Both the position numbers and the translations under genes were made by a program. Positions 21,114 through 45,255 of a stretch of 64,000 bases of DNA are shown here, one piece after another. The stretch is taken from positions 2,862,001-2,926,000 of the forward strand of contig CALZFC010000027.1 of assembly GCA_945643635.1 (NCBI GenBank), written 5' to 3'. The DNA comes from Allodiplogaster sudhausi. Its lineage: Eukaryota > Nematoda > Chromadorea > Rhabditida > Diplogasteridae. Under the pieces are notes generated by a model. The model had not been told where the DNA came from and made no database searches. It saw only the letters and a list, made by a program, of their open reading frames with translations. The number at the start of each line of letters is the position of its first letter. Position 1 is the first letter of the stretch.

Positions 21114-21156
21114 TGAGAGAGAGAGAGAGTGAGAGAGTGAGAGTGAGAGAGAGAGG
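21066..21156. repeat. (GA)n microsatellite
   Basis: GAGA tract with GAGTGAGA interruptions, between the Polinton relic and the 3' end of gene 2. Confidence 0.95.
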
Positions 21157-24600: not shown

Positions 24601-25138
24601 TTCCATATGGGAAGGAAACGGCCAGTCGCGTACGCAGAAATACAAAGACTAAATGTATAAATAAAACGTATTATGGCCTGCTGATATCACTTTCCCCAAA
24701 ATCGATCACAGCCCAACCTGAAAGACAGCTTCGGCATGTTCTCCACTATCGAGCGTCGCAGAAAGTTCGCTTGCATACTTTAGAATCATTTCGTAGTACT
24801 TGCAGAGATTTGACTGAAAAAGGCAAGGAAATCACACTGACACACAAAAGGGTCTCTTTGACAAGGTGGTGTTAAGAGTGTGTGCCCCATGGGTTAACAG
24901 ATAGTATTGCGGATAGAGAGCACTCTAAGTAGAGTTGTATCAGCATGGAGTTTTAAGTTCGGATAGCCCGTACTTAATGTATATCCTAGTAACGGATATT
25001 TTTTATGTTCACATCTGCTCGATGCATAATGTTGATGAGCTGGACAGAGGAGATGAGTGTCGAGAGGGCGAAGAGAGTGTACGTCAAGTTCTCATCTTCC
25101 TTCGACTCCATCGGGTCAAAGAGGCCTTGGATGTCGAC
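21668..25138 (-). pseudogene. atlastin/GBP-like large GTPase with coiled-coil tail (gene 2), 5' truncated
   Basis: Exons: 25138-25013 (VDIQGLFDP, FALSTLISSVQ), 24813-24718, 24648-24563 (FCVRDWPFP), 24400-24259 (ILLPHPGIAIS), 24097-23919 (EIDEYFLEVVGDA, IIAYIK), 23763-23629 (DVVTANKKVAARV), 23445-23363, 23304-23244, 23064-22843 (heptad-rich EEQMSRLEEEMKGATEE), 22242-22069, 21778-21668 (LEQQLAGMRRGGGGGGQW, stop). Splice phases agree throughout. It is the paralogue of the gene at 14.2-18.2 kb, in convergent orientation, and keeps the G3 aspartate (DIQG) and RDW. The 24,648-24,563 exon is 86 nt where 87 is required, so the frame slips by one base after RDWPFP. Exons carrying the P-loop are not found to the right; the inverted duplication and large palindrome begin there. 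It is a truncated gene, or its 5' end has been moved elsewhere. Confidence 0.75.
22284..22714. mobile_element. TA-flanked MITE with G-run modules, copy 2
   Basis: The same termini as the element at 2,838-3,025 (CCGTATTTTCTCTATTAGT at the left, AATTGAGAAAATATGG at the right, then TA). The interior has G-homopolymer modules and ACTATTTTTCAATG, plus about 160 bp of unrelated sequence (22,400-22,560). It lies in an intron of gene 2. Confidence 0.65.
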
Positions 25139-25169
25139 CTGAGAATGCCGTGAAAAGTGCGCTGCGTGA
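24911..25169. repeat. 259-bp inverted repeat, left arm
   Basis: Reverse-complementary to 25,457-25,715 with only a few mismatches. It carries the gene 2 exon at 25,013-25,138 and its flanks. The 287-bp spacer between arms contains a (CT)n tract. Confidence 0.9.
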
Positions 25170-25217
25170 CATCGTGCTTACTCTACAGGGAGCCACTGCA
25201 TTCGTGCTCGTCAGTGT

Positions 25218-25330
25218 ACTTCTCTCTCTCTCTCTCTGTCTCTGTCTCTCTCTCTCTCTCTGTCTCTCTCATTATCTCCTCCCTAGCGTTCTCTCTCTCC
25301 TTCTCTCTTCATATCCTTACTTTTTTCTGC
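25218..25330. repeat. (CT)n tract in inverted-repeat spacer
   Basis: CT/TCTG-rich stretch between the two 259-bp arms. Such tracts can form triplex DNA and may have promoted the rearrangement. Confidence 0.85.
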
Positions 25331-25456
25331 CATCATTTCTTTCGCGTTTGCTGAACTAAATACCGTTGGTTATTTCAAAGAGTAGTTGCTTTTTATGGTT
25401 TTCGGAGCAGCGTTTCAAAAAAGACAGAATAAAAAAAAGTGAGCGAGCCACTCTTA

Positions 25457-25715
25457 TCACGCAGCGCACTTTTCACGGCATTCTCAGGTCGACATCCAAG
25501 GCCTCTTTGACCCGATGGAGTCGAAGGAAGATGAGAACTTGACGTACACTCTCTTCGCCCTCTCGACACTCATCTCCTCTCTCCAGCTCATCAACATTAT
25601 GCATCGAGCAGAGGTGAACATAAAAAATATCCGTTACTAGGATATATATTAAGTACGGGCTATCCGAACTTAAAACTCCATGCTGATACAACTCTACTTA
25701 GAGTGCTCTCTATCC
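25457..25715. repeat. 259-bp inverted repeat, right arm, with orphan exon
   Basis: Plus-strand copy of the gene 2 exon at 25,488-25,613 (VDIQGLFDPMESKEDE, STLISSLQLINIM), with intact acceptor TCTCAG and donor GTGAAC. No other exons of the gene follow in this orientation. The arm ends at CTCTATCC, 4 bp before the large palindrome begins, so the exon is an orphan by-product of rearrangement. Confidence 0.9.
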
Positions 25716-25809
25716 TATTGAACTTGGGCTTTTCTAGTTTTTTTTCTTTTCCTTTACAAAGTAAACAGTTGGTAGATAAAACAGAGAAACTGTTGCATAA
25801 ACAACACAG

Positions 25810-27368
25810 GTGGACTACGTCTGCGTCGGAACGGGCACGAGCGGCTCGGCGACCGGCATTGCGATGACGATCAAGGAACGCTGCCCGACGGCCAAGGTTT
25901 GTGTTCTTGGCAGAGTGCCAATGCTTTTCAATTTATTATTTATTTCGATTGAAAAAATTAAAATTATTAATTTTTACTCTTTATTCGCATACATACATAC
26001 AAACATACTACATGATGATAGAATGACACTTATGCTTATATAAAGCTAAAAGAAATGACAGAAGAAAATGAGAGAGAATCATAAATATCCGAGATAATCC
26101 GTTACGATTAATTTCCTTTTTCATTCCAACTTCATATCTACATACAAACCATATTACAGATCATTGGCGTGGACCCGCACGGGTCCATCCTCGCGAATCC
26201 GGAAGAGACCGAGACGAGCTTTTATGAGGCAAGAAATCAAAAACGATTTTTTTTTCGATTCTGACTAATACTTTCTTTTTCTACGAATATGCTTGCTACT
26301 GATGTGCCTTTTAAGCATTTTTAAGTCTGCAACCTATTGAGAATGATCGATGATTAAATTAGTCCGTAAATACTACGTTATTTAAAAAAAACAAATATGG
26401 TTATTGTCTCTTTACAGGTCGAGGGAGTCGGCTACGACTTTGTGCCCGGCGTGCTCAAGCGGCCCGTCATCGACGTCTGGGCCAAGTCATACGACAAGGT
26501 ATGAAGTTGTTTTAAAGTTTTTTTTCAGTCTTTTTAAACCATCTATTTTTCTTTAATAAATAATTTCTCAATAAAATTGTGTGGCAGGCATACCAATCTA
26601 TCTCAAAAAAATTTCTATGTATGCTTAAAAAAAGCTTGTATATTTGTAAATCACTCTCTTGTTCTTCCAGTCGTCGTTCGAGACTGCGCGTGAGCTGCTG
26701 TCGAAGGAAGGCCTTCTGTGCGGCGGCAGCTCGGGCGCGAACGTCCACTCGGCCCTCGAGGTCGCCAAGGGCCTGCCGAAGGAGGCGTGCGTTGTCGCGC
26801 TCCTCCCCGACGGCGTGCCGCAACTACTTGTCAGCGAAACTCACTCTCTCCCTCTATCTCTCTCTCTCTATCTCTCTCTCTCTCCGTCTTTCTCTATTTC
26901 TCTTTCTTACTCTCTCTCTCTCTGTCTTTCTCTATTTCTCTTTCTCATTCTCTCTCTATTTCTCTATCTCACTCTCTGTCTTTCTCTCTATTTCTCTTTC
27001 TCTCTCTCCATCTTTCTCATTCTCTCTCTCTCTGTCTTTCTCTCTACTTATCTTTCTCTATCTCCTTCTTTCTCACCCTCTCTCTATTACAATCTCCCTC
27101 TCTTTCTCTCCCTTTCTCTCTCTCCCTCTTTCTCGCTCTCTTTCTCACTCTCTTTCTCACATTCTCTCTCTCTCTCTTCCTACTTACTTAAAGTAGCACA
27201 AAACTCACTCTTGAATTCGCATCCTTTTCCTGACACAAGTGTGATTTACAGTGTTGCAATTATACAAAGTGAATCGAAACTCTTCATTTATGTACATATG
27301 TATGTTCTTTCAGGACTAAATTCCTCTCGGACGACTGGATGTTTGCCCGCCATTACCATTTGATGTAG
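25810..27368 (+). pseudogene. cystathionine beta-synthase C-terminal half, left-arm copy
   Basis: Exons 25810-25896, 26160-26228, 26418-26498, 26671-26829, 27314-27368 mirror the right-arm copy. Two changes stand out: the glycine-rich loop reads GTGTSGSATG rather than [10 protein letters not shown], and the fourth exon has one extra C (159 instead of 158 nt), shifting the frame before the conserved [11 protein letters not shown] end. The exon for [19 protein letters not shown], present next to the right arm, is absent because the arm begins inside that intron. It is an inactive partial duplicate. Confidence 0.8.
26843..27180. repeat. (CT)n tract in CBS intron (left arm)
   Basis: About 340 bp of interrupted CTCT/TTTCT between the last two CBS exons. 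The right-arm counterpart is at 42,863-43,206. Confidence 0.95.
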
Positions 27369-28189
27369 GATGAAATTGTTTTTTTTTCACATTTCCAAAC
27401 TCTAAAACAACCGCTTCGTAATCAAATCAAACTATTCTTTAGAACAATTCAAACTAACAAATATATGTTTTTCCTTTTTCATTATTTACCAGCGAATTTA
27501 GACAACAACTCATTTCGTACGTGATATTGTGAAACATTCTTTTTTTGTCTAGTTCTTCGGTACTTTTTTTCTTTTGTTCGAATGCCTTTCATCGCTTGTG
27601 TGATTCCACAAAATTGCAGTCTTATTCTCGCTGTGCGCTAATTATAGAATGGCGAACGAATATGGAATTATCATGCATTACAAAAAAAATTGTTGATCTT
27701 ATTCAAAAATAAACAAGCAAGAGTTTAGTTGTTTTCTCTTATTTACATGTTTCCAAGTTAGAGATATGACAAGATGCATTACAAATTTGCCCGTACATCT
27801 TCTTATTTACGGTCTGTCTCTACTTTTTCAAGCAATCCAAAATGCTTCAATGAGTTCCACAGACGTTCTCCTCCAGATGCCGTTATTTCCTTTTGACGGA
27901 GTATTTCGACAACCGTCAAATTTGGTCTCTTTCTCGTAGTTTTTCCTCCTCCTCCTCTTCTTTCTTTCCTGGAGGTGCACTCCACCAATAGGTCTCGATC
28001 TGGAAAAAAAAATGTTTGAAAAATTTATGCACATTACGAAGTTTCCTCTTCCATTTAATTGGCGATGTCGATATTATTTCCGTCTTTAGAGATGGATCAC
28101 AATGGAAGATTAAATTATATCCATTAAAAATGCATGAATTTTTAGTTTCATTCTTCCATTATGATGGTATACAAAGCAGCAAAATAAAG

Positions 28190-28311
28190 GACACAGACGC
28201 GATCCTGACGGAAGAAGACGCTTGCAACCTCGTGCCGGATGGCGGGCCGGGCGAGAAGGCCTTCGACAGCGCCGTCCTCGGCATGGGCCCCGACGGCTGC
28301 CTCGTCTACAC
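28190..28311 (+). pseudogene. unrecognised exon interrupted by hAT insertion (left arm)
   Basis: The frame TEEDACNLVPDGGPGEKAFD then SAVLGMGPDGCLVYT runs into the hAT terminus at 28,312. In the right arm the sequence beyond the transposon (minus strand from 38,474) continues the frame as LTCTGTQATIEVGF. The short stretch AFDSAVLGMGPDG resembles the 6-phosphogluconolactonase motif LGMGPDGH, while the Cys-containing continuation does not, so the identity stays open. The right-arm copy at 41,743-41,860 has several substitutions. Confidence 0.35.
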
Positions 28312-28324
28312 CAGGGGTGTATCG

Positions 28325-28361
<37 letters not shown>

Positions 28362-29973
28362 CCTTTTTTCTCGTCCGAATTCCGATTTCCGAATTCCGTT
28401 TTAAAAGGAAGCCGTCCGAATTCCGAATTCCGTTATGAAGGCTATTTCTTCGGAATTTTTTTCGGAATTTAGTAGCTTAGATGCAGTCGAACGGACAGCC
28501 TTGTTCTGTCATTTTATATGACAGTGCAAAGTGAACTGTTAACATTGCGACATGCATTGTTCTTGATAGTTTGAGTGCAATGGTGAACCTTTTAGATTGA
28601 GATTGTTTCGTTAGGTCGCGTTTCGTCATTTTCATCTTAATTTTTTTTCTTCCAACATATTGTCTGTTATTATTTATTATTTGCAGGTCCCGAATGGGGA
28701 AGCATGGAAAAATGCTTACACCCGTTTGGGCTTATTTCGAGAAGATTGATGTGGACAAGAATGTGGTAAAGTGCAAAGCCTGCGACTACACCAAGAGCCT
28801 CGGTGACGATGCCTCCACGAATTGTATGACATCCCATCTAAGAAGCAAGCACAAGGACCTTTTCAAGGAAATGCAAATTGAGAAGGAAAGTAAAGAAAGG
28901 TATGCGGAATAATGGTTCAACATGTTGTCTCACAAATTATTTTAAATTCTGATGCGTACATAGTTATTTGTAAGTCACAATCGCTTTTCAAATATTTTTT
29001 TTGTTGTTTCAATTGCAGGCAGAAGATTAACGATGTCAAGAAAGCGGCCCTTTGCAAGCAGTTTTTTCATCCGAAGGGTCCAGCAGCGTCCTCTTCACAT
29101 GTTGCTTCGACTTCCTCGCAGAAGACGAGCAGTGATCTTCCTTCGAAGTCCTCCACTCAGACTCCACTAGCTGATTTCGTCAACCAGTGGACAGCTGAAG
29201 GCAAGAAGAGCGTTGCTGTTGATAGAGCCATCGCTGAGATGATGGCACCTGATCTGATGCCGTTCAATACTGATGAAAAGAGAGGGTTCGGCCGGCTTTT
29301 GAAGCTTCTCTGCCCTCACTACAAGCTAAAGTCAGCTTTATTTCTTTTCATTTTCCTCTGCTCGGTCTAGATTTGTTCCGCTGAAAGGGATACTTATCTT
29401 CATTTAGGAAACGGCAATTTCACGTCAACGAACTGGATGAGTGCAAGAGTCAACTGTCGACGCGCATCCTGGAAGATCTGAGACGGGTGCCTTTTCTTTC
29501 CTTCACGACGGATGTTTGGAGCTCGACTGACAGCACTCATTCTCTCCTCTCCCTGACTGCTCACTTCATTGACGACAACATGTTCCCGCAGTTCCTCGTC
29601 CTGGGCGCACTCCCAATGAAAGACAGACACTTCGCTATTAATATCAAGGTACATATTTTTTGATATTCGAATAGTTAAACGATTTGAATAATTTGGTTTC
29701 TTTATTGCATTGTTCTTTTTCATTTCAGACGCTGATCGAAAGGTGTCTTAGCGAGTACAGCATTGACACCTCAAAGGTGCACTTGTTCCTCCGAGACGCT
29801 GCCAGCTCGATGAAGGCGGCAACTGAGCTGCTCGACGAAGATTCCTTCGACTGCTTTGCTCATCGACTGAACCTGGTGGTGCAAGACGGGCTGAGAGCGG
29901 TATCCGGTTACGAAGAATTACTCGACAAAATCCAACGGCTCATTCGGAAGGTGCGGACGTCAGAGCGTCACAC
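28312..29973 (+). mobile_element. hAT transposon, left-arm copy, 3' truncated
   Basis: Begins with the terminus CAGGGGTGTATCGGAATTCC right after the 8-bp GTCTACAC. It carries subterminal GGAATTC repeats and transposase exons for the BED zinc finger (28,694 on), the linker and the RNase H-like region (FTTDVWSSTDS, RDAASSMKAA, CFAHRLNLVVQDGL). It stops inside the transposase after RTSERHT at 29,973, where the next palindrome block is joined. Same element as 38,483-41,734. Confidence 0.9.
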
Positions 29974-30659
29974 AGAGATGGATCACGATGGAAGAATAAA
30001 TTATATCCATTAAAATGTAAGAATTTTCAGTGGATATTTTATATTCTTCCATTATGATCTTAACGGATGGTATACAAAAAAACAGCAAAAAAAGGACACT
30101 GACACGATCCTGATTGAAGAAGACGCTTGCAATCAGGCGCATTTTTCGCAGTTGCTGCGGTGTAAATCGATTCTTCCTAAAACTTTTTCCATTTCTCATA
30201 AAGTATGAAAGTGCTATTAGAAAAAAATATAGAATCAATTCAAGGAAATCTGCCTGTGAATTAGTTAGTTTAAAAATGGAAAAACCTAAAGTAGAGCGTA
30301 GAAGCTAGGGGAATGACAAACCCTGCTTCCGTAATATTGTCCGAGCGATCGAACGACAAGAGAGGCAGTAGACCAGCGGGATCGAGGCTTGATAATAGGA
30401 AGAAAAAGAAGAAATAAAACTGTTTAAGCATCTCTCATGAATTAATTAATCTTAATACTTAAAAGTTTCAAATTTTCAAAGTTTATTCCAAAATCAGGGA
30501 TTGGGCCCGGTGGGTTTCGGGGGCTAAGGCAAGATGAAAGGCATAGGGTTTCACGACTGCGGTCCTCATCCATGTATGGGACTGGTTACTAATTAATGTC
30601 TCTCATTAATTAATGTTTAAATGAGCGTGGAAAACAATACTAACGGCTGAACGGTGCAC

Positions 30660-32708
30660 TTGAGCCTCACTGCTGGACTCCGTGGATTCACAATGAAAAT
30701 TCGATCGAGAATCACGTAGATTGCCGAATGAAGCTTGCCGTCGTCACAAAGCTAAACGAACAGAAAAAGAAGAAGAAGAGCACTGATCACTTTTTTCTAA
30801 TGTCATTGTTGACCAAGCAAAGGGGGAAACTAGCTGCTATGAACCAACTCTGTCCAGTAAATGCTGTAAATCTGCGGAAAAGAGAGGCCCTCGTCCCTCT
30901 TTAATGTCATCCTTAAATGAGTTACATTCTTAATGGCTTAATAAGAGCGGTGCTTGTTGGCAGGGACGGAATATAGAGAGAGAGGCGCAGAGGGAACAAG
31001 AAAAAGAGATTGAGAAGAGAGAGAGACGCAGAGGGAACAAGAAAAAGAGACAGAGAAGAGAGAGATACGCAGAGGGAACAAGAAAAAGAGATAGAGAAGA
31101 GAGAGAGACGCAGAGGGAACAAGAAAAAGAGACAGAGAAGAGAGAGAGAGACGCCGAGGGAACAAGAAAAAGAGATAGACACCTCGCTTGGCAAGTAGCC
31201 AATGATGTTGTGTGCTAAATCTCCATAACTCTGGTATTTTTCCATAATTAGCTGCGATTTGCCGTCGCGAACTTGCGCAATGAAGTCCAGAAACTTTCTA
31301 GAATAAGGCTCTTTCTCGCTCTCTAAAATGTATTCAATCAAATATCAAATAGTTTTAATCCATATTTATCAACTGGATATCGTAACTAAAAAACTGAGTT
31401 AAAGATAAGGATGTCCCGCTTTTTGTTCCAATGATTTTTGCTACAAGATTCCGATTTGATGAACTTAAAAAAAGCCAATGTAAAAGAATCAATTATCATA
31501 CGTTCTGGGCTCCTTTGGCGGCACAGAGATATTGCCGGTATAGTCCGCCGAGTAGAGTGAAGCGACTACGATACAGACAACAGTGTAAAATGCTTCGTGT
31601 ACGCGAATTCCTGCAAGATTAGAGAATTAAGAATGTACTTCTACTTTATTTACTGTCACAAACGTGGCAAGTGTACAGAATTAGCATGGTTAAAATACGA
31701 TCGGAAATATGAAGAAAAGTAATTAAAACTAAAATAAAAATGGTACAGGGAGTACAGGATTAGGAGATATATGTAGTGTATTCATAGCTTGAAAACAATA
31801 AGCTCAAAAAAACAACAACTTCTCTTGAACGGTTGGGATAGACGCTCGATTGCGTAGGTCACTGCAACAGCGGCAAGCAGCAAGCCAAAGGCGGGGTAAG
31901 AAAATACGAGAAAGTCAACCAGTCTACGGCTCGGTGAATAGCTCACTTTCTCGAAAAACGACATCTGAACATATTAATATGTATTTAAAAGCTATTTTCA
32001 AGAATGGAAGCGACATGCTTCCATGATTGAAAAATAAACAAATCAGGCACAAAAAAGAACTATACCTGACTGTACATCACTGGCTGGGAAACATGGCCAA
32101 AGTCTCGTAGTCTCTCGGGCCGAAGAAGCTGCAGAAAGGCAAGTTTAAATGAATCAGTAAAAATTTGCATAGTTTCCAGAGTTTCGACACGAAAGACGGC
32201 TTAAGGCGTGGGAAATTTGAAACGACTCTTTCTTATCTTCTTCTAGATCTTGAGCACGCAAAAAAGTGGGCAAGGACGAGAAGATAAATATGAACTGAAA
32301 TTAATTTCTAATGTTAAAATTGCACTCAAAAAAGAAGTTCTTCATACGTGATCGATGTAGGAGCCATCGATTTGGTTCGTCTGAATTAGTCCCAGGATTC
32401 CTGAGTGTCTTCCAGAAACGTCGGGACCAGCTTCATCTAAATGAGCAATCTTGGTCATTTTAGAATTCGGTTTATCATCCGCGAAGAAGGTATTTATAAA
32501 AAAAAAACATTTATAATCAGATTATGTCACACCATAGCTTGCCAAGTGGACGTCGACAATCGACTCGTTCATGGCTTCCGCCCACATGCGCCATATCTCG
32601 CGGTGGATGCCTCGCACCTGGTCGAGTACACGGGAATTGTAGAGATACGGAAAGATGTCGACGGCGCGGTTGGCGCCCGACGACAGGATGATGGTCATTG
32701 AGGATTGT
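30660..32708 (-). CDS. ionotropic glutamate receptor-like channel, front exons
   Basis: Exons: 32708-32533 (MTIILSSGANRAVDIFPYLY...), 32436-32348 (SGILGLIQTNQIDGSYIDH), 32128-32066 (ERLRDFGHVSQPVMYSQ), 31964 to about 31835 (FLVFSYPAFGLLLAAVAVTY, M1), 31610-31502 (FYTVVCIVVASLYSADYTGN, M3, matching the SYTANLAA region), 31322-31183 (KEPYSRKFLDFIAQVRDGKS), 30751-30660 (DDGKLHSAIYVILDRIF). A weaker exon at about 30,500-30,585 reads KPYAFHLALAPE. The order S1, M1, M3, S2 fits the iGluR/IR fold, with most splice phases matching; the M3-to-S2 join is off by one nucleotide. An M4 exon is missing at the expected place to the left, but one exists in the right arm (37,287-37,496). Ligand unknown. Confidence 0.65.
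30973..31178. repeat. 39-41 bp minisatellite, 5 copies
   Basis: Five near-identical units containing CGCAGAGGGAACAAGAAAAA followed by GAGA. They lie in an intron of the ionotropic-receptor gene, just after the donor at 31,183 on the minus strand. Confidence 0.9.
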
Positions 32709-32949
32709 CTGAAAGGCACGCACACAATTTTAAATCACACGGAACGTGTGCGCGTGTCCGCCCTTGTACATCTTGTGCCGATCAATAAAGGGCGTGAACT
32801 CGCTGACTCAGTTGTTATCCTTTCACAATGGCATGTAATCGAACACGTCGAAGAACAGGAATAGATTTATCACTTCAAGTGATCCTCGAGATCAGACCAA
32901 TGAATCGCAACTATACGTCAAAGTAACTAGAAATGTCTAGCTTCTAATT

Positions 32950-33500
32950 ATAGATCTAAAGCTGGAAAGAGGAGGAGGATATGTAGTAATAAAAGAAGAA
33001 ATAAAGAATAAGGAAAGAACAAGTTAAACCCTGAAAAGGAAGAAATCAAAGAAACAAACAAAGAAGAAGGGAATGAGAAGGTTTGTACCCGATGGCCTTG
33101 CGCCTAGAAGAGTGTGGTGGTGGTGGTGTGTGGAGAAAAAGAGAAGAGAAGAGAAGCGGTCACTGGAGAGAGAACCGTGCCACTCGGAGGCAAAACCCTG
33201 GAAATGCACGGTTGAAAGCCGGCCGAGGTTGCGGGTAGCCAATCGCGAGTGGTGACGAAATCGGGAAGGAAAGTATGATAAAAAGGAATCGGCGAGATTC
33301 GCTGATTAAAGACTGGAAGAGAAAAGGAGAGATAAGAGAGAGAGAAAGGAAATGGTGAGAAGCAAGGTTGAGAAATAAGCAAATGAAAAGCAAGTACATA
33401 TGACGAAATAGTAAATAACAACAATATGCTCAAGACTGGCTTACAAGCCAGCAACCGCATTTAAGCATAGCTAAAGGCCCGTATCAATACAAGTAATAAT
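32950..33500. other. unassigned part of left-arm-specific segment
   Basis: GA-rich sequence with a short GGTGGTGGTG run at 33,115. No exon is convincing. It could be the 5' region of the receptor gene or the outer part of the BEL/Pao element. Confidence 0.5.
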
Positions 33501-34270
33501 CGAGGAAGAGTTAAAGTAACTCTTCTATACATGTGGAATAACAAATATTAAAGCAAATATAACAGGTTGACCGGCAAAGTGAACATAAAATGGAGAAATG
33601 GAGTAGAGAAAAGTGGACGAATGATGCCAAACAAATCATTTAGCCGCATGAGAAACAAGAAGAAAAAGCCAGCATCTACGTGAATGGCAAGAATTTTAAA
33701 TTACAACACGGAGCGCAATTGCGCTTCAATAAATATCAGAGTCATTCGCACTCTTGCGAACACTGGGGCCGCAAGAGAAAAAAAGGGAAACAAACAGCAA
33801 GAAGGGAAGGGAGAGAGGGTAAGGGAATTCGCTTGCTTTTGCCCTTGCTACCGTTCTTGATACGGTGGCTCTCGAATCGGATGATGCTGCTCGAAATCGA
33901 TCACCAAATGAAATTGACATCGAAGATATAATAGTAGAGGTGCTAGATGAATGGAGTTGTTCTTTCTCAGATTTGGAGTCGTGGCTGGCGAGGGGAGAAG
34001 TCATTACTGGGCAGTAAGAGACATCGCCCTACTTCTCCAACTTAGAAGTGTTACGATTAGCTTCTTCAATAGGACTCCCCAAGGACTCGAAAGCAATCGT
34101 GTTGCAGAGTGGAGAGAGAGAACAGAATGAAATACTCCAAGAACATTAATTTGTTGATGATCGTCGAAGGGAGAGTAACTCGTAGAACATATAAGAGCAT
34201 GTAGAGTTGGAGAGAGTAGTTAAAGATCTGTACAGATTCATCTTGCTTCGCAGTCATCACAGGGCTCTGC

Positions 34271-35240
34271 CTAGTGACCCTGCGGAGCATCCATGGGACT
34301 GTTGAGTTGCTTCTTCTTCGCCCTTCGCTCCGGTTGTCTCCTGCGTCCAGTCGTCTTACTATGCGACTTCGGTGAAGAGGAGACCACATCCGGGGAAGAA
34401 GAGATTGTAGAAGATGGTGAATTTCTGTTGCCGCCATCGTCAGGCACACAACTGTATACTTCCAATGGAATGAGCAGATTGGGAGAACGAGTAATGACTC
34501 GACCGCTGGACACCCTCAGAGTCACTTCTCGCTGCGACCCAGTGACTCCGGGTCTGGTTGTCGTCCTTCAGCAAGACGATCTCATTGGCTCGAGGGGATG
34601 AAAGACGTCGCCCCTTGCTTCACATGACTCCTCGCAGCTGCATCAGAAAGGCGGATGAGAGACTCTTTTCGCCAAATCTTCCTGAGACGAGCAGCGTGAG
34701 AGAGAGAGAGTCTGTGTAAGTAAATTCGATGGCATATCTATTCGTCGACATCCCAACTGCCTGGAAGTCTGGATCACTATTCTTGTTCTCTGCTTCATCC
34801 ACTACCACGGAGGTCAAGTGGAGGGATGGCCAGAGGAAATCGATGGGACGGACTGTTACAATAGTGGTGGAGTAGGTATCCTTGAGTGCTGCGAGACTGC
34901 GAGTGTTCACTGCTGCTTCTGTTTCTTCCAACAGTATTGCGAGATCATCTCGTGAGACGATGATCCTTCGTCCGATCGTCTTCTGGATCGCAAATTTGAC
35001 TCTACCGATGAGCCTCTCGTAAGTCCCTCCCTTCCAAAGAGAGAATGCAGTGGTGAATGACCACTTAAAGTTCTTGTCAGCCATCTCCTCACTCACAGCA
35101 TCTGACATTAGATCTGTTGGTCAGAAGATTTTCAGCCAAGCGGAAGGTCGGAGTCTGGTCAGACAGTACAGTCTGTGGCACTCCTCTCCGGGCACAGAAG
35201 CGTCTGAAAGCGTTCAGAAAGGTCTTTGCAGAGAGGTCTG
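34271..35240 (-). mobile_element. BEL/Pao retrotransposon pol 3' end (integrase and C-terminal domain), left arm
   Basis: On the minus strand: TDLSAKTFLNAFRRFCARRG (integrase core, in the palindrome spacer), a stop/frameshift near 35,095, then SEEMADKNFKWSFTTAFSLW, KGGTYERLIGRVKFAIQKT, EAAVNTRSLAALKD and, after another shift near 34,600, VTLRVSSGRVITRSPNLLIP. This is the BEL/Pao integrase core followed by the DUF5641-like tail. No reverse transcriptase is present in the window. DNA beyond the stop (33,501-34,270) is probably LTR, but its ends cannot be defined. Confidence 0.75.
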
Positions 35241-35251
35241 TGATGAGCTCT
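35001..35251. other. palindrome centre, 251-bp asymmetric spacer
   Basis: Single-copy DNA between the two arms. It encodes, on the minus strand, the integrase segment just upstream of VKFAIQKT. Both arm tips begin at exactly that codon, so the inversion breakpoint lies inside the integrase gene. Confidence 0.85.
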
Positions 35252-35981
35252 GTCAAATTTGCGATCCAGAAGACGATCGGACGAAGGATCATCGTCTCAC
35301 GAGATGATCTCGCAATACTGTTGGAAGAAACAGAAGCAGCAGTGAACACTCGCAGTCTCGCAGCACTCAAGGATACCTACTCCACCACTATTGTAACAGT
35401 CCGTCCCATCGATTTCCTCTGGCCATCCCTCCACTTGACCTCCGTGGTAGTGGATGAAGCAGAGAACAAGAATAGCGATCCAGACTTCCAGGCAGTTGGG
35501 ATGTCGACGAATAGATATGCCATCGAATTTACTTACACAGACTCTCTCTCTCTCATGCAGCTCGTCTCAGGAAGATTTGGCGAAAAGAGTCTCTCATCCG
35601 CCTTTCTGATGCAGCTGCGAGGAGTCATGTGAAGCAAGGGGCGACGTCTTTCATCCCCTCGAGCCAATGAGATCGTCTTGCTGAAGGACGACAACCAGAC
35701 CCGGAGTCACTGGGTCGCAGCGAGAAGTGACTCTGAGGGTGTCCAGCGGTCGAGTCATTACTCGTTCTCCCAATCTGCTCATTCCATTGGAAGTATACAG
35801 TTGTGTGCCTGACGATGGCGGCAACAGAAATTCACCATCTTCTACAATCTCTTCTTCCCCGGATGTGGTCTCCTCTTCACCGAAGTCGCATAGTAAGACG
35901 ACTGGACGCAGGAGACAACCGGAGCGAAGGGCGAAGAAGAAGCAACTCAACAGTCCCATGGATGCTCCGCAGGGTCACTAG
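35252..35981 (+). mobile_element. BEL/Pao pol 3' end, right-arm copy
   Basis: Plus-strand duplicate of the integrase C-terminal part and DUF5641-like tail (VKFAIQKTIGRRIIVSRDD to IPLEVYSCVPDDGG), including the frameshift seen in the left arm. DNA to 36,691 probably includes LTR sequence. It lacks the integrase core, which exists only once, in the spacer. Confidence 0.75.
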
Positions 35982-37039
35982 GCAGAGCCCTGTGATGACT
36001 GCGAAGCAAGATGAATCTGTACAGATCTTTAACTACTCTCTCCAACTCTACATGCTCTTATATGTTCTACGAGTTACTCTCCCTTCGACGATCATCAACA
36101 AATTAATGTTCTTGGAGTATTTCATTCTGTTCTCTCTCTCCACTCTGCAACACGATTGCTTTCGAGTCCTTGGGGAGTCCTATTGAAGAAGCTAATCGTA
36201 ACACTTCTAAGTTGGAGAAATCTGAGAAAGAACAACTCCATTCATCTAGCACCTCTACTATTATATCTTCGATGTCAATTTCATTTGGTGATCGATTTCG
36301 AGCAGCATCATCCGATTCAAGAGCCACCGTATCAAGAACGGTAGCAAGGGCAAAAGCAAGCGAATTCCCTTACCCTCTCTCCCTTCCCTTCTTGCTGTTT
36401 GTTTCCCTTTTTTTCTCTTGCGGCCCCAGTGTTCGCAAGAGTGCGAATGACTCTGATATTTATTGAAGCGCAATTGCGCTCCGTGTTGTAATTTAAAATT
36501 CTTGCCATTCACGTAGATGCTGGCTTTTTCTTCTTGTTTCTCATGCGGCTAAATGATTTGTTTGTCATCATTCGTCCACTTTTCTCTACTCCATTTCTCC
36601 ATTTTATGTTCACTTTGCCGGTCAACCTGTTATATTTGCTTTAATATTTGTTATTCCACATGTATAGAAGAGTTACTTTAACTCTTCCTCGACTTTGAAA
36701 ATTTGAAACTTTTAAGTATTAAGATTAATTAATTCATGAGAGATGCTTAAACAGTTTTATTTCTTCTTTTTCTTCCTATTATCAAGCCTCGATCCCGCTG
36801 GTCTACCGCCTCTCTTGTCGTTCGATCGCTCGGACAATATTACGGAAGCAGGGTTTTTCATTCCCCTAGCTTCTACGCTCTACTTTAGGTTTTTCCATTT
36901 TTAAACTAACTAATTCACAGGCAGATTTCCTTGAATTGATTCTATATTTTTTTCTAATAGCACTTTCATACTTTATGAGAAATGGAAAAAGTTTTAGGAA
37001 GAATCGATTTACACCGCAGCAACTGCGAAAAATGCACCT

Positions 37040-37307
37040 GATTGCAAGCGTCTTCTTCAATCAGGATCGTGTCAGTGTCCTTTTTTTGCTTTTTTTTTGT
37101 ATACCATCGTTAAGATCATAATGGAAGAATATAAAATATCCACTGAAAATGCTTACATTTTAATGGATATAATTTATTCTTCCATCGTGATCCATCTCTA
37201 AAGACGGAAATAATATCGACATCGCCAATTAAATGGAAGAGGAAACTTCGTAATTTGCATAAATTTTTCAAACATTTTTTTTCCAGATCGAGACCTATTG
37301 GTGGCGT
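37040..37307. repeat. direct repeat, inner copy
   Basis: From TTGCAAGCGTCTTCTTCA through the TAATGGATATAATTTA region to CAGATCGAGACCTATTGG. The same block lies in the same orientation at 41,818-42,063, and as reverse complements at 27,984-28,230 and 29,974-30,133. It ends with the splice acceptor and first codons of the receptor M4 exon, so an exon edge was duplicated. Confidence 0.8.
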
Positions 37308-37496
37308 CGCTTCACCAATCGGCCCAAGATTGTGAATGGGTACCGGAGCCCCTATTCCTACTGGCCGCTCCACCTGATGGACATCTACCTGAATATCATC
37401 GTCTTTAGCTCACTCTACGCCCTTTCCGTCCTTGCCTTCTTCGCCGAATGCCTATGGCACAAATACGGTGGCGTACGCCGATTTTGGCGCCTTTGA
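37287..37496 (+). CDS. ionotropic receptor-like last exon (M4 segment)
   Basis: After a TTTTTTTTCCAG acceptor, a 70-codon frame reads IETYWWRRFTNRPKIVNGYR, then YWPLHLMDIYLNIIVF, SSLYALSVLAFFAECLWHKY, and ends WRL-TGA. The PL-LxDL...LSVLxFxxELLxHK pattern is the iGluR/IR post-S2 helix M4 with its short tail. No front exons lie to its left on the plus strand; the expected partners sit in the other palindrome arm on the minus strand (30,660-32,708). So the exon is separated from its gene. Confidence 0.65.
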   Translation: METYWWRRFTNRPKIVNGYRSPYSYWPLHLMDIYLNIIVFSSLYALSVLAFFAECLWHKYGGVRRFWRL

Positions 37497-38482
37497 CAGT
37501 CTAAATTCAACAAATTCAAGGCTATTAGTTTATGAATCTTTTTGTGCCGACTCTCGCTTGTGCAATGTGGCGTTTTTTAGTACTTTTTTTTTAAATTTTT
37601 TAGGTGAATTGATCTTTATCCACTAAATACGGTGATCATGACTTCTGCTGGTTGTGCATCCAATAGATATTTTTATACAAAATGTTATAAATAAGCGTAA
37701 CAAGCAGCAATACCACTTCGTTATGTAATAGACAATTTACTTCACCAGTGACTTCTATGAGATATTTTATTCTGGTAAGCGTTGAAGCCTCTAATGAAAA
37801 GCTATTGTGACTAATAAAAAGAATAAATTAATGTTTTAAAAGAAAATGAACCAACAAACTGCCTTAGTAAGAATGTTTTGGTCTTCAAGAGATTAGAGAA
37901 GAACCGTGTCGTTGGAAAAGTATGATTTTCTTTGAAAAAATAAATATAAAAATAAAAAAATAAATTGCTATTTGAATTTCCCGCTCTTTTTTGAATTCGC
38001 CTTTTGTATATAAGAAAACAGTACATTTTCCATTTCAGAACTTGTCCACTGATACAGGAAGTATAAAAAGAATAACAATGAAATAAGAAAAAGTCTATCA
38101 AAAAAGGAAGATGCAACGTTGCAGCTTGCAATGGAAATTATCGTTTGAAGAAAAAGAAATAAGAATAATTTGAGGCTTCAATCCCAACGCCTTTGCCAAT
38201 TACGCCATTAGATATTAAGCTATTAAGGCTTAAAGGAGGAAGACGGTGGGAGAAAAAATGGTTATTTTTGTTTTCAAGAAAATTTGTTAGAATTGTTCAT
38301 TATATCCCTCCCCCCTTTTCCAAAATGTAGCCTCTAAGCCACTATTATGTAGATATCAAGCTAATGAGAGGCTTAAAGTTGGATAACGTGGTTAATTTTA
38401 TTTAAGCAAAATTTTTATTGCTCATAATTGTAAATCCGACCTCGATGGTCGCTTGAGTGCCGGTGCACGTGAGTGTGTAGAC

Positions 38483-38577
38483 CAGGGATGTATCGGAATA
38501 AAAATTTTCATAACGGAATTCGGAATTCGGAAGGCCTCCTTTCATAACGGAAATCGGAATTCGGAAGAGAAAAAAGG

Positions 38578-38613
<36 letters not shown>

Positions 38614-41600
38614 TCTGGTGTCAACCAGGAAAATAGGATAACAATTTATTCAACAAGTGAATTTGAACAACAGTTAAAGGTAAGGTGTTTTTTAACTTCT
38701 GGGAGCAACATTTTAAATAAATAAGAATTGATCAATGTTAAAAAAAAACCAAACGATATTTAGTCAATGAACTGCTCCTTTAAGTGTATTTGTAGTCGTA
38801 GATGGCCAGGTTGTGGTGAGTAAAGAGGAGATTTTCAACATTTTCCACAAGAAGCCTTTTGCGCAATTCTGTAACGATGGCACCGGCCGTGGAGAAGAGG
38901 CGCTCGCTCTCCATAGAGCCTGCAGGTGCGCTATGGAATCGGCGTACAAGGTGACGGAGCTCCTTCCAGAGGATGCCCTTCTTTCGCCAGTACTCAAAGG
39001 GGTCGGCATCCAGTGCGATTCGCTTCTCACGCAGATACGCATCAACCTATGAATAAATAAACTAATTTTAGTAGTGTCGTATAGATAAAAACATATTTGA
39101 AATGCAGTCTACCTCCACTTCAGCACGATGTCTGGCTTCGATGCTTGATTTCGACTTCTTTCTCGGAGGCTCGTGATTGTACTTCTGCTCGTAAGCACTG
39201 AAGAGGCTATATACGGCAGAATCGTTTCGGCTGCTCTCAGATTCGCTTTCATCGGCTACAAATACCCACCCTACCGTTTCATGAATATTAACCAATATTT
39301 GTCTACGGAATGCTGCGCTTTATTAAATGAAATACCTGAGAGGGCGCTGCTATCGTCATCTAGCAGCTCTTCCACTTCCATCACTAGCGATATGCGAATT
39401 TTGTCTTGATCTCCAGAAGGGAGATGAGCGAAGTACGTCATCTTGTACCGTGGGTCGAGCAGAGTGGCCAGAACCAGATTGGCGTTGTCCATCCATTGAT
39501 TCATTCTTCGGTCGAGGCCTTCCAACATAGCTCTCTTCATTGGGAGAAGATCAACCTAAATGGCAACACCTTACTAACAATTAGTATTATTATTTAAATC
39601 GCAAACCTTTCCTTTCATAGCCGGCTTTTTCAAATGGTCCCGCATCACGACAACTGTCGGGATGACTACCGAAATGCTTGTGGTCCTGTCTTGCAAGGCC
39701 TTTGTGATGGCAGCCACCGGATATAGCACTTCATTGATTCCTTCCAGTTTCTGCCACTCAGTGTTCGAAAACTCTATCCGCGTTTTTTCCGCATTCTTCG
39801 GGCGGGGCAGTGTAGAGCAGAATAAGTCCACTGCCTCCCTGTTCTTCACCAGCCGTGCAATCATGTCGTACGACGAATTCCATCGCACGTTGCTTGACTG
39901 AAATGCTCCTATCACATGTTTCGTATTGGGCGAATATTACAGTAAAGTACAGTAAAGTCAAATCATAGAAGAATAATAAATGGAAGTTTTTTTAATTAAT
40001 TAAAGGGAAGAAATGTTGAACCTTAATTAGAACTTGTTCGTCAAGTTCAAGCTCCTTCTGAAGATTGGCAAAAGTGTGACGCTCTGACGTCCGCACCTTC
40101 CGAATGAGCCGTTGGATTTTGTCGAGTAATTCTTCGTAACCGGATACCGCTCTCAGCCCGTCTTGCACCACCAGGTTCAGTCGATGAGCAAAGCAGTCGA
40201 AGGAATCTTCGTCGAGCAGCTCAGTTGCCGCCTTCATCGAGCTGGCAGCGTCTCGGAGGAACAAGTGCACCTTTGAGGTGTCAATGCTGTACTCGCTAAG
40301 ACACCTTTCGATCAGCGTCTGAAATGAAAAAGAACAATGCAATAAAGAAACCAAATTATTCAAATCGTTTAACTATTCGAATATCAAAAAATATGTACCT
40401 TGATATTAATAGCGAAGTGTCTGTCTTTCATTGGGAGTGCGCCCAGGACGAGGAACTGCGGGAACATGTTGTCGTCAATGAAGTGAGCAGTCAGGGAGAG
40501 GAGAGAATGAGTGCTGTCAGTCGAGCTCCAAACATCCGTCGTGAAGGAAAGAAAAGGCACCCGTCTCAGATCTTCCAGGATGCGCGTCGACAGTTGACTC
40601 TTGCACTCATCCAGTTCGTTGACGTGAAATTGCCGTTTCCGAAATGAAGATAAGTATCCCTTTCAGCGGAACAAATCTAGACCGAGCAGAGGAAAATGAA
40701 AAGAAATAAAGCTGACTTTAGCTTGTAGTGAGGGCAGAGAAGCTTCAAAAGCCGGCCGAACCCTCTCTTTTCATCAGTATTGAACGGCATCAGATCAGGT
40801 GCCATCATCTCAGCGATGGCTCTATCAACAGCAACGCTCTTCTTGCCTTCAGCTGTCCACTGGTTGACGAAATCAGCTAGTGGAGTCTGAGTGGAGGACT
40901 TCGAAGGAAGATCACTGCTCGTCTTCTGCGAGGAAGTCGAAGCAACATGTGAAGAGGACGCTGCTGGACCCTTCGGATGAAAAAACTGCTTGCAAAGGGC
41001 CGCTTTCTTGACATCGTTAATCTTCTGCCTGCAATTGAAACAACAAAAAAAATATTTGAAAAGCGATTGTGACTTACAAATAACTATGTACGCATCAGAA
41101 TTTAAAATAATTTGTGAGACAACATGTTGAACCATTATTCCGCATACCTTTCTTTACTTTCCTTCTCAATTTGCATTTCCTTGAAAAGGTCCTTGTGCTT
41201 GCTTCTTAGATGGGATGTCATACAATTCGTGGAGGCATCGTCACCGAGGCTCTTGGTGTAGTCGCAGGCTTGGCACTTTACCACATTCTTGTCCACATCA
41301 ATCTTCTCGAAATAAGCCCAAACGGGTGTAAGCATTTTTCCATGCTTCCCCATTCGGGACCTGCAAATAATAAATAATAACAGACAATACGTTGGAAGAA
41401 AAAAATTAAGATGAAAATGACGAAACGCGACCTAACGAAATAATCTCAATCTAAAAGGTTCACCATTGCACTCAAACTATCAAGAACAATGCATGTCGCA
41501 ATGTTAACAGTTCACTTTGCACTGTCATATAAAATGACAGAACAAGGCTGTCCGTCCGACTGCATCTAAGCTACTAAATTCCGAAAAAAATTCCGAAGAA

Positions 41601-41734
41601 ATAGCCTTCATAACGGAATTCGGAATTCGGAAGGCTTCCTTTTAAAACGGAATTCGGAAATCGGAATTCGGAAGAGAAAAAAGGTCGGAATTCGGAATTC
41701 GAAATTCGGAATTCGGAATTCCGATACACCCCTG
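38483..41734 (-). mobile_element. complete hAT transposon, 3,252 bp
   Basis: Termini CAGGGATGTATCGG (38,483) and CCGATACACCCCTG (41,734) are inverted repeats with one mismatch. The 8-bp duplication GTGTAGAC flanks both ends (38,475-38,482 and 41,735-41,742), the exact hAT target-site length. Subterminal GGAATTC repeats lie at both ends. It carries a full transposase gene. Insertion split an exon (see 28,190 and 41,743). Confidence 0.95.
38780..41353 (-). CDS. hAT transposase (BED zinc finger, RNase H-like, hATC)
   Basis: Eight or so exons. In order: a BED finger (MLTPVWAYFEKI, CQACDYTKSL, HLRSKH), a serine-rich linker, TPLADFV and DEKRGFGRLLKL, then FTTDVWSSTDSTHSLLSLTA with the first catalytic Asp, RDAASSMKAA and CFAHRLNLVVQDGL, RWNSSYDMIARL, MDNANLVLATLLDPRYKM, an acidic linker ending PRKKSKSSIEARH, and the hATC dimerisation domain DPFEYWRKKGILW, MESERLFSTAG, LLFTHHNLAIYDY, stop at 38,780. 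Start at 41,353, 6 nt inside an exon that begins after TATTTGCAG. I see no frame break, so the protein may be active. It cuts and pastes hAT DNA in the nucleus. The left-arm copy differs at one BED residue (CKACDY). Confidence 0.85.
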
Positions 41735-41742
41735 GTGTAGAC

Positions 41743-41860
41743 GAGGCAGCCGTCGGGGTACATGCCGAGGACGGCGCTGTCGAAGGCCTTCTCGCACGGC
41801 CACGCCATCCGTAACGAGGTTGCAAGCGTCTTCTTCAGTCAGGATCGCGTCAGTGTCCTT
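41743..41860 (-). pseudogene. interrupted exon, right-arm copy
   Basis: Counterpart of 28,190-28,304, immediately outside the hAT target duplication. It reads EKAFDSAVLGMYPDGCLVYT with G-to-Y and other changes; the frame before EKAF differs from the left arm. It continues past the transposon at 38,474 on the minus strand as LTCTGTQATIEV. Confidence 0.35.
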
Positions 41861-42677
41861 TATTTTGCTGCTTTGTATACCATCATAATGGAAGAATGAA
41901 ACTAAAAATTCATGCATTTTTAATGGATATAATTTAATCTTCCATTGTGATCCATCTCTAAAGACGGAAATAATATCGACATCGCCAATTAAATGGAAGA
42001 GGAAACTTCGTAATGTGCATAAATTTTTCAAACATTTTTTTTCCAGATCGAGACCTATTGGTGGAGTGCACCTCCAGGAAAGAAAGAAGAGGAGGAGGAG
42101 GAAAAACTACGAGAAAGAGACCAAATTTGACGGTTGTCGAAATACTCCGTCAAAAGGAAATAACGGCTTCTGGAGGAGAACGTCTGTGGAACTCATTGAA
42201 GCATTTTGGATTGCTTGAAAAAGTAGAGACAGACCGTAAATAAGAAGATGTACGGGCAAATTTGTAATGCATCTTGTCATATCTCTAACTTGGAAACATG
42301 TAAATAAGAGAAAACAACTAAACTCTTGCTTGTTTATTTGGGAATAAGATCAACAATTTTTTTTGTAATGCATGATAATTCCATATTCGTTCGCCATTCT
42401 ATAATTAGCGCACAGCGAGAATAAGACTGCAATTTTGTGGAATCACACAAGCGATGAAAGGCATTCGAACAAAAGAAAAAAAGTACCGAAGAACTAGACA
42501 AAAAAAGAATGTTTCACAATATCACGTACGAAATGAGTTGTTGTCTAAATTCGCTGGTAAATAATGAAAAAGGAAAAACATATATTTGTTAGTTTGAATT
42601 GTTCTAAAGAATAATTTGATTTGATTACGAAGCGGTTGTTTTAGAGTTTGGAAATGTGAAAAAAAAACAATTTCATC

Positions 42678-43158
42678 CTACATCAAATGGTAATGGCGGG
42701 CAAACATCCAGTCGTCCGAGAGGAATTTAGTCCTGAAAGAACATACATATGTACATAAATGAAGAGTTTCGATTCACTTTGTATAATTGCAACACTGTAA
42801 ATTACACTTGTGTCAGGAAAAGGATGCGAATTCAAGAGCGAGTTTTGTGCTACTTTAAGTAAGTAGGAAGAGAGAGAGAGAGAATGTGAGAAAGAGAGTG
42901 AGAAAGAGAGCGAGAAAGAGGGAGAGAGAGAAAGGGAGAGAAAGAGAGGGAGATTGTAATAGAGAGAGGGTGAGAAAGAGGGAGATAGAGAAAGATAAGT
43001 AGAGAGAAAGACAGAGAGAGAGAATGAGAAAGATGGAGAGAGAGAAAGAGAAATAAAGAGAAAGACAGAGAGTGAGATAGAGAAATAGAGAGAGAATGAA
43101 AAAGAGAAATAGAGAAAGACAGAGAGAGAGAGAGTGAGAAAGAGAAATAGAGAAAGAC

Positions 43159-43191
<33 letters not shown>

Positions 43192-44522
43192 AATAGAGGG
43201 AGAGAGTGAGTTTCGCTGACAAGTAGTTGCGGACGCCGTCGGGGAGGAGCGCGACAACGCGCGCCTCCTTCGGCAGGCCCTTGGCGACCTCTAGGGCCGA
43301 GTGGACGTTCGCGCCCGAGCTGCCGCCGCACAGAAGGCCTTCCTTCGACAGCAGCTCACGCGCAGTCTCGAACGACGACTGGAAGAACAAGAGAGTGATT
43401 TACAAATATACAAGCTTTTTTTAAGCATACATAGAAATTTTTTTTTGAGATAGATTGGTATGCCTGCCACACAATTTTATTGAGAAATGATTTATTAAAG
43501 AAAAATAGAAGGTTTAAAAAGACTGAAAAAAAACTTTAAAACAACTTCATACCTTGTCGTATGACTTGGCCCAGACGTCGATGACGGGCCGCTTGAGCAC
43601 GCCGGGCACAAAGTCGTAGCCGACTCCCTCGACCTGTAAAGAGACAATAACCATATTTGTTTTTTAAATTAACGTAGTATTTACGGACTAATTTAATCAT
43701 CGATCATTCTCAATAGGTTGCAGACTTAAAAATGCTTAAAAGGCACATCAGTAGCAAGCATATTCGTAGAAAAAGAAAGTATTAGTCAGAATCGAAAAAA
43801 AAATCGTTTTTGATTTCTTGCCTCATAAAAGCTCGTCTCGGTCTCTTCCGGATTCGCGAGGATGGACCCGTGCGGGTCCACGCCAATGATCTGTAATATG
43901 GTTTGTATGTAGATATGAAGTTGGAATGAAAAAGGAAATTAATCGTAACGGATTATCTCGGATATTTATGATTCTCTCTCATTTTCTTCTGTCATTTCCT
44001 TTAGCTTTATATAAGCATAAGTGTCATTCTATCATCATGTAGTATGTTTGTATGTATGTATGCGAATAAAGAGTAAAAATTAATAATTTTAATTTTTTCA
44101 ATCGAAATAAATAATAAATTGAAAAGCATTGGCACTCTGCCAAGAACACAAACCTTGGCCGTCGGGCAGCGTTCCTTGATCTTCATCGCAATGCCGGTCG
44201 CCGAGCCGCCCGTGCCCGTTCCGACGCAGACGTAGTCCACCTGTGTTGTTTATGCAACAGTTTCTCTGTTTTATCTACCAACTGTTTACTTTGTAAAGGA
44301 AAAGAAAAAAAACTAGAAAAGCCCAAGTTCGATATATTTCAAAATAACATTGTTTTAACTTTAATTGCGATCTTTTCTTTGTGTATGGCACGCTCTAGGA
44401 TACTTGTGAGATTTTTTTTTAAGAAAAAAATTCTCACGAAATCTTACCTTGTTGTCGAGCGCGGCGAGAATCTCCTCGGCCGTCTGCTCGTAGTGCGCCA
44501 TCGGATTACCCATGTTGCGATA
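42678..44522 (-). CDS. cystathionine beta-synthase, C-terminal half of catalytic domain
   Basis: Exons: 44522-44448 ([19 protein letters not shown]), 44240-44154 ([18 protein letters not shown]), 43890-43822 ([16 protein letters not shown]), 43633-43553 ([16 protein letters not shown]), 43378-43221 ([33 protein letters not shown]), 42732-42678 ([17 protein letters not shown], stop). All phases join with an open frame. CBS condenses homocysteine and serine with pyridoxal phosphate; the glycine loop and LLCGGSSG region seen here bind the cofactor phosphate and the active site. The N-terminal exons, which hold the Schiff-base lysine, were not found to the right. The protein ends after the catalytic domain with no regulatory CBS pair. 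The third exon ends GAG then GCAAGA, a GC-AG intron. The first exon lies just outside the palindrome. Confidence 0.8.
42863..43206. repeat. (GA)n tract in CBS intron (right arm)
   Basis: Mirror of 26,843-27,180, slightly longer. It reads CT on the sense strand of the CBS gene. Confidence 0.95.
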
Positions 44523-45133
44523 CTGTAAAAGGAAAAATATGTACACAAGTTCAATTGTTATCACAACATTTGTTTTATAAGTTTTGCTATGACGAAAACG
44601 ACATATATACATATGAATGTATGTATATACAAATGTTAGCCGGAGTGCAACATTTTATGTCCTGAATTCATATACATATGTACATACTTACATATGTAGC
44701 AATCTGGAGTTTGAGAAACAACTTTATCGCAGAGATGCGAATACAGAAAAATATCTAATAAAAACTAATCGATTATCAAAGAAACAACCCATTTTGTTTA
44801 GTACGCCTAAATGTACACCCGGGTGATAATGATTTATTGATTTGTTTCTCGCCTTGTACTCGATCTATGAAATCAATATTCTGGAACTAATAATCTGACA
44901 GCATAAAGAAGCAACCCTGAAAAGCTCATCAACTTTCACTAACTTTGAAAGAAATTATGCACGAAAAACCAAAAGTTAATAGAATATCTTATTTGAACAT
45001 GTTGCTACTCACAAGAATCTTATAGGTATGCATGGCTTACTCTCTGGAACCGAACTGGACTCCACACGCAGGAAAGTCGCTCAAAGGTCATGGCGACGAG
45101 ACAAAGTGCGCTTAATATAAGTGAACTGTTGTC

Positions 45134-45179
45134 TGGGTCCGGTGGGTGAAGGCAAGCTTGCCTTCATCCACCGGACCCA
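45134..45179. repeat. 46-bp near-perfect palindrome with no spacer
   Basis: TGGGTCCGGTGG...CCACCGGACCCA centred on the HindIII-like AAGCTT (45,154-45,159). All 23 pairs match except one g/t pair (45,146 and 45,167). It could form a cruciform or a very stable RNA hairpin. No ORF depends on it. Confidence 0.9.
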
Positions 45180-45255
45180 ATCCTGAAAGTGGTATAAACT
45201 TTGAACTTTGAACTTAGATCTATGAGCTTTTGAGCCTGTTTTGATTCTCGCATAC

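Follow-up and report, generated by a model that had tools for sequence, protein, structure and literature searches.

The stretch of DNA analysed here (the window) is 64,000 bp from the nematode Allodiplogaster sudhausi, C27:2,862,001-2,926,000, on a 5.0 Mb contig (C27, CALZFC010000027.1) of an assembly of 352 Mb and 382 contigs; positions given without a contig name are window positions, and other contigs are named in the same short way. It carries an 18.6-kb palindrome (25,716-44,334) whose two arms lack different pieces of about 3 kb, a second, small palindrome that meets the left edge of the large one and, to the left of both, a tract of about 16 kb that is nearly identical to a locus on another contig, C325, and that begins at an abrupt step in divergence. 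One inverted segment, made of two pieces that meet at 25,715|25,716, has the small palindrome at one end and the large palindrome at the other. We consider it moderately probable that these features were left by one real chromosomal rearrangement, made by replication-based repair with template switches.

The block coordinates were obtained from a self-BLAST of the window together with a base-by-base alignment of the arms, and Ns are absent from the whole window. The original prediction had described a palindrome of this size made of three collinear inverted blocks. The palindrome is present and its pairing is indeed collinear and inverted, but there are four blocks and not three, C and D being split by 58 bp. 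Block A pairs 25,716-29,973 with 40,074-44,334 (35 substitutions in 4,252 aligned bases, 99.2% identity counting substitutions only), block B pairs 29,974-30,482 with 36,693-37,199 (5 in 507, 99.0%), block C pairs 33,500-33,974 with 36,219-36,692 (2 in 474, 99.6%), and block D pairs 34,033-35,000 with 35,252-36,218 (3 in 967, 99.7%), the left copies being on the plus strand and the right copies (A' to D') on the minus strand. Over the four blocks there are 45 substitutions in 6,200 aligned bases (0.73%), and the match of the arms is beyond chance, with a BLAST E of 0 across 4.3 kb. The complementary 3-kb pieces that had been predicted were recovered by self-BLAST as well as by alignment. X (30,483-33,499, plus strand, 3,017 bp) occurs solely in the left arm, while the right arm, which lacks it, has B' joined straight to C'; Y (37,200-40,073, minus strand, 2,874 bp) is in the right arm only, and in the left arm, where Y is missing, B is joined straight to A. 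The 58-bp piece between C and D (33,975-34,032, plus strand) is likewise in the left arm only. At the centre lies a spacer, S (35,001-35,251, plus strand, 251 bp), which is continuous with the left arm only.

Neither the small palindrome at the outer edge nor the inverted stretch that begins at 25,170 had been noticed in the original prediction. The inverted pair P and P' (24,911-25,169 and 25,457-25,715) differs at 3 of 259 positions (1.2%), and P' meets block A to the base at 25,715|25,716, the outer left edge of the large palindrome. P, the native arm, is an exon plus adjoining sequence from a minus-strand GBP/atlastin-like gene and has a match to Pfam PF02263 above the cut-off. The 287 bp that follow it (T) and P' (259 bp) together make up a piece of 546 bp (25,170-25,715, minus strand), the inverted copy, which in C325 is a single contiguous piece at 851,964-852,507 on the plus strand with 9 differences in 543 bases (1.7%); the order of P followed by T on a third contig, C46, agrees with that on C325. 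The whole inverted stretch, 25,170-35,251 (10.1 kb), is composed of this piece of the GBP locus at its left and of the left arm from A to S. When P, P', and C325 were compared over the 259 bases they were found to be three distinct sequences, with 3 differences between P and C325 and 4 between P' and C325 in addition to the 3 between P and P'. In the GBP gene on C325 the P-loop exon is at 851,582-851,662 and a second exon is at 851,896-852,009, and past the point corresponding to the exit from this locus the exons run on in order, so that the locus is unbroken there as judged from exon order. Upstream exons of the window gene copy that holds P were not found within the window, whereas C325 keeps them. 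A Foldback transposon at 24,911-25,715 was ruled out, as P is an ordinary GBP-like exon and T with P' is contiguous in C325. The window has two GBP-like genes, which lie tail to tail (14,583-18,241 on the plus strand and 21,961-25,169 on the minus strand) and have coiled-coil exons; the exon compared between them is 53-56% identical.

When the left side of the window was aligned with C325 it was found that 9,167-25,169 (plus strand) is about 99% identical to C325 at about 867-852 kb (minus strand), whereas to the left of this tract the same alignment is about 91% identical. A change-point fit placed the step at 9,167, with mismatches at 164 of 1,776 positions to the left (9.2%) versus 14 of 1,341 to the right (1.0%). 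The original prediction had also missed this step from 9% to 1% divergence, and that the divergence of about 1% is kept up to the first inverted junction wherever compared. The pieces 11,517-18,679, 19,063-20,121, and 20,717-25,169 are 98.7-98.9% identical to C325, with 500-bp windows ranging from 96.1 to 100%, and the last part of 7,348-10,514 is likewise about 99% identical; the comparison leaves out 10,515-11,516. The end of the tract coincides exactly with the start of the inverted copy. Further left, the similarity to C325 is about 92% at C27:2,855,001-2,857,923 and 86% at 6,015-7,237. The left flank also has two direct duplicates (3,694-5,429 and 8,741-10,266) that are about 77% identical and both match C325. 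On the other side, the right flank beyond 44,619 matches C35:1,196,809-1,200,756 in collinear pieces at 78-87%, and at 44,718-44,985 it has a dispersed repeat of about 270 bp that is found in at least 39 further places at 86-92%, some of them inverted pairs about 1.3 kb apart.

C325 also provides an outgroup for the arms. At C325:752-761 kb there are exons for CBS (cystathionine beta-synthase), then an exon-like repeat E, B, and X in the order of the left arm, without the hAT element that the arms of the palindrome hold. Counting substitutions only, C325 is 94.4% identical to the left arm at 25,716-27,785 and 93.9% identical to it in E; in B and X the figure is about 90%. The boundary between B and X is unbroken in C325 (window 29,975-31,179 corresponds to C325:756,441-757,593), and the order X-C-D-S matches that of copies of a long terminal repeat (LTR) element elsewhere in the genome, for example on C41, with LTRs at 2,972,485-2,972,882 and 2,981,636-2,982,041, a C-like sequence at 2,973,142-2,973,386, and a sequence like D and S at 2,974,397-2,975,525. 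Therefore X, which has homologues on C325 and C46, is ancestral and was lost from the right arm. The boundary between Y and B is unbroken twice in C325 (window 36,698-37,581 corresponds to C325:756,937-756,046, and the second instance is at 766,475-767,364), and in the right arm the hAT reading frame crosses the border between A and Y; therefore Y is also ancestral and was lost from the left arm. These continuities bear out the earlier proposal that one ancestral arm held everything and that each arm then lost a different part. No target-site duplication was seen at the X and Y gaps or at the other joins. Sequences related to the window's GBP, CBS, and X pieces occur on both C325 and C46, and these two contigs also share a 3-kb piece adjacent to the GBP gene at 91% identity; the loci on C27, C325, and C46 are possibly duplicated chromosome segments.

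The recent divergences are similar, being 0.73% between the arms, 1.2% between P and P', 1.1-1.3% between the tract and C325, and 1.7% between the inverted piece and C325; for older relatives the figures are higher, at about 6-10% or more. A young duplication had been among the readings offered in the original prediction, and the 0.7% between the arms supports it; the similar divergences of the new pieces fit a single time of origin. When 26 of the 45 arm substitutions were polarised against C325, 15 were left-derived, 10 were right-derived, and for one there was no outgroup base (binomial p = 0.42). Each arm has therefore changed on its own.

A probable course of events is that a broken end of C27 paired near 9,167 with the related locus on C325, which is about 9% diverged, and that about 16 kb were copied from it. 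We infer that C325 was the donor because its GBP gene retains exons that are absent from the window copy. Within the GBP-like gene, if synthesis ran in this direction, it would have changed strand and run back over 546 bp (25,170-25,715). The next switch would have been to the segment with the CBS exons, the hAT element, and the LTR element, copied in the same inverted sense (25,716-35,251), and inside the LTR element a second strand switch would have let synthesis exit by way of the segment's other copy (35,252-44,334). As one inverting switch would undo the other, everything outside 25,170-35,251 is left in the normal direction. Y would have been skipped or later lost in one pass and X in the other, and the two losses may thus belong to the event itself or have come after it. 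We infer that template switching, rather than end joining, made the joins at 25,169|25,170, 25,715|25,716, and 35,251|35,252. A divergence that drops from 9% to 1%, a tract that ends at an inverted join, inversions that cancel, and two 3-kb gaps are together the trace that break-induced replication (BIR) with template switching would be expected to leave. That all of it happened in a single germline event, with a 9%-diverged donor, 16 kb copied, two cancelling inverted switches, and the gaps being two polymerase skips, one per pass, is a possibility that we put forward tentatively.

Several observations weigh against replication-based repair with template switches. The main point is that the joins are nearly blunt, which speaks against switching driven by microhomology. 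Among the five joins judged, microhomology is 0 bp at three (25,169|25,170, 25,715|25,716, and the Y gap), whereas the X gap shows 1 bp and the 58-bp gap shows 2 bp. In microhomology-mediated break-induced replication (MMBIR), as set out by Hastings et al. 2009 (PMC2621351), microhomology of 2-5 bp is described and a second inverted switch can restore a viable chromosome; the window shares with that account several switches that mix duplication, inversion, and deletion, but not the 2-5 bp, as the judged junctions have 0-2 bp. Two pieces within the tract, 18,680-19,062 (383 bp) and 20,122-20,716 (595 bp), are without a counterpart on C325 and would require later insertions or deletions. The two outgroup copies do not agree with each other at 30,083, and 10 of the 45 arm substitutions fall in 230 bp at 28,191-28,420 (versus 41,626-41,856), a clustering matched by 3 of 5,000 shuffles. 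This cluster could have come from a mutation shower, local conversion, or sequence error; at 9 of its 10 positions the left arm has G or C where the right arm has A or T, and both of those that were polarised by C325 are left-derived. Finally, a chimeric molecule or contig keeps a small but real chance of being the explanation, and the divergence of about 1% could also be heterozygosity of the sample.

Such an artefact would be either an assembly error that joined different haplotypes or loci or a chimeric palindromic molecule that arose during whole-genome amplification or from an adapter that had been missed. Amplified DNA of microscopic animals has been described as giving many palindromic reads with multiple inversions, and such DNA has been described as the source of false inverted duplications in one assembly (PMC13265396, PMC6218980). 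Jaron et al. (PMC7953838) have warned of false palindromes from scaffolding, and all the recent divergences lie near 1%, where heterozygosity might also lie. A chimera of one molecule, however, predicts identical arms, whereas here there are 45 substitutions, derived changes have arisen separately in the two arms, and the 3-kb gap of one arm is not that of the other. An artefact would also need three abrupt joins within about 10 kb and a homologous entry point 16 kb away. The contig is 5.0 Mb long, and the outer flanks of the palindrome are not allelic. The suggestion in the original prediction that two haplotypes were joined head to head is disfavoured on two counts. When C27:2,855,001 to window 24,910 was compared with window 44,335 to C27:2,936,000, 2 matches were found, the longest of 246 bp and none reaching 95% over 100 bp, and with looser settings there were 16 matches, the longest again of 246 bp and none of them allelic. 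Furthermore P, P', and C325 are three different sequences, whereas a single diploid animal has only two haplotypes at a locus, although more than two could be present in a pooled sample. Three stretches away from the junctions (5,600-7,300, 44,335-45,400, and 48,300-50,300) had no second copy at 95% identity or more among the 40 candidates scored for each, other than pieces shorter than 50 bp. For these reasons we hold an artefact to be unlikely.

Outward fold-back from both ends of the inverted middle is also possible because the loops T and S both lie within that middle, as folds from its two ends would place them. In this explanation both break ends, or both ends of the inverted middle, would have folded back, by fold-back priming or in a breakage-fusion cycle, and would then have been extended or joined. 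The short single-copy loops of 287 and 251 bp resemble those of the human fold-back inverted duplications of Hermetz et al. 2014 (PMC3907307), with which the window shares an inverted copy, a short single-copy spacer, and an adjacent loss. Moreover, DNA adjoining the exit point, C325:847,500-850,500, which begins 1.5 kb past it and has a 91% homologue on C46, had on C27, among the best 39 of 323 candidates, only repeat-like counterparts at 1.42 Mb, one stretch of 1.3 kb at 69% and two short ones at 79-82%; this observation counts equally for replication-based repair with template switches. On the other hand, the left fold has 0 bp of inverted microhomology, whereas 13 of 18 junctions in the human set have 2-8 bp; the spacers in Table 1 of that paper are at least 700 bp; and the human ends it describes are telomeric or translocated, without closure by a second inversion. 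For the right fold, no native sequence was found. Fold-back alone also leaves the 16-kb tract shared with C325 unexplained. If two chromosome ends had folded back, the loop would be expected on the native side; this version was dropped, as C325 places T in the inverted copy. The breakage-fusion event of the original prediction, in its plain form, predicts neither two cancelling inversions nor a 16-kb copied tract, and here two inversions restore the net direction. We therefore think fold-back rather improbable. Less probable still is an ordinary inverted duplication, by way of the hAT or LTR element or through unrelated events, with the C325-like tract as a separate gene conversion. The arms do contain both elements, and the LTR element spans the centre, but the joins are without a visible target-site duplication, the fold centre is inside the element and not at its end, and the tract stops exactly where the inverted copy starts.

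Repair by replication with template switches has its closest published parallel in the long-tract gene conversion or BIR with aberrant ending described in mouse cells by Hartlerode et al. 2016 (PMC5104497), with a 1.2-kb tract in the clone described. Shared with that account are a long tract from a homologous donor, then template switching (one clone has an inverted piece), and then joining to another end. Unlike in that account, the donor here would be a related but diverged locus, the copied stretch, at about 16 kb, is longer than the published ones, and there are two inverted switches and near-blunt joins. A copied tract entered within shared homology, the mark of BIR and of long-tract conversion, is what was found here, as divergence falls from 9.2% to 1.0% within one alignment and identity stays at about 99% to 25,169 wherever compared. 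Palindromes have also been reported in parthenogenetic animals by Jaron et al. 2020 (PMC7953838) and in the Folsomia candida genome (PMC5490193), as collinear gene blocks for which, according to the authors, misassemblies are possible. The window is like these in having head-to-head inverted copies on one contig, and unlike them, as they are described there, in having arms of 7-10 kb, an outgroup, and junctions read to the base.

As to the content of the arms, block A has CBS 3' exons in both copies, open in A', with matches to PDB and with Pfam matches that are below the cut-off in single exons. The closest listed relatives of one CBS exon are two Pristionchus entomophagus proteins at 73% and 71% (the first of 119 listed, in a search that omits full-length CBS by length). 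Of the CBS gene that had been predicted, the exons are there but the gene is not complete: it is a 5'-truncated fragment, which outside the palindrome extends only over 44,335-44,619 (minus strand), with one more exon at 44,525-44,445, and similarity to C325 ends at the same place. Exons much further upstream sit on C325, where the CBS exons match Romanomermis CBS from residue 53, with the first match at 752,162 and those upstream of the window's set at 752,162-753,518. The left CBS copy has three replacements at CBS-conserved positions and a one-base frameshift, and the right copy has a silent change only. The idea of a decaying left arm and a working gene in the right arm was dropped, as both copies are without the upstream exons and derived changes, judged against C325, are present in both arms.

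Besides the CBS exons, left block A has E and the 5' half of the hAT element, and Y has the 3' half together with part of the exon-like repeat E'. The hAT pieces at 38,783-41,431 (minus strand) comprise a BED finger, an RNase-H-like part, and a C-terminal dimerisation region (PF02892 and PF05699 above the cut-off, PF14372 below it), and only in the right arm are they all in order. One hAT piece and one integrase piece gave no matches against proteins, nor did one hAT piece against viral and genome contigs. The LTR element contributes an LTR-like dispersed sequence in X (32,747-33,154), part of left block C, the 3' part of its pol, coded on the minus strand, in left block D, and an integrase-like region in S (Pfam rve, below the cut-off, E 0.023). 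It may be a BEL/Pao element, as labelled in the original prediction and as its motifs suggest, Pfam having given just that sub-threshold integrase match. The receptor gene that had been placed in X found no support in nine X frames searched against Pfam (best sub-threshold E 0.18) or in one frame searched against PDB. A 6-phosphogluconolactonase-like identity for E, suggested by a motif, was rejected, as neither Pfam nor PDB supported it. Separately, at 20,330-20,680 (minus strand) there is an open frame with a likeness in motif to the adenain-like cysteine proteases of Polinton elements and with no Pfam match.

The rearrangement in this window seems to be a scar of a known kind of repair that is unusually readable, and not a new kind of element. 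To our knowledge, natural cases are rare that resolve to the base where copying began, what the donor was, and most of the exits. If confirmed by reads, it would be a dated and mapped case of rescue by an inverted switch outside human disease and cancer, and it could be used to test if repair in this genome draws on divergent related loci as donors. It also serves as a caution, since a longer copied tract may lie behind a palindrome seen in an assembly.

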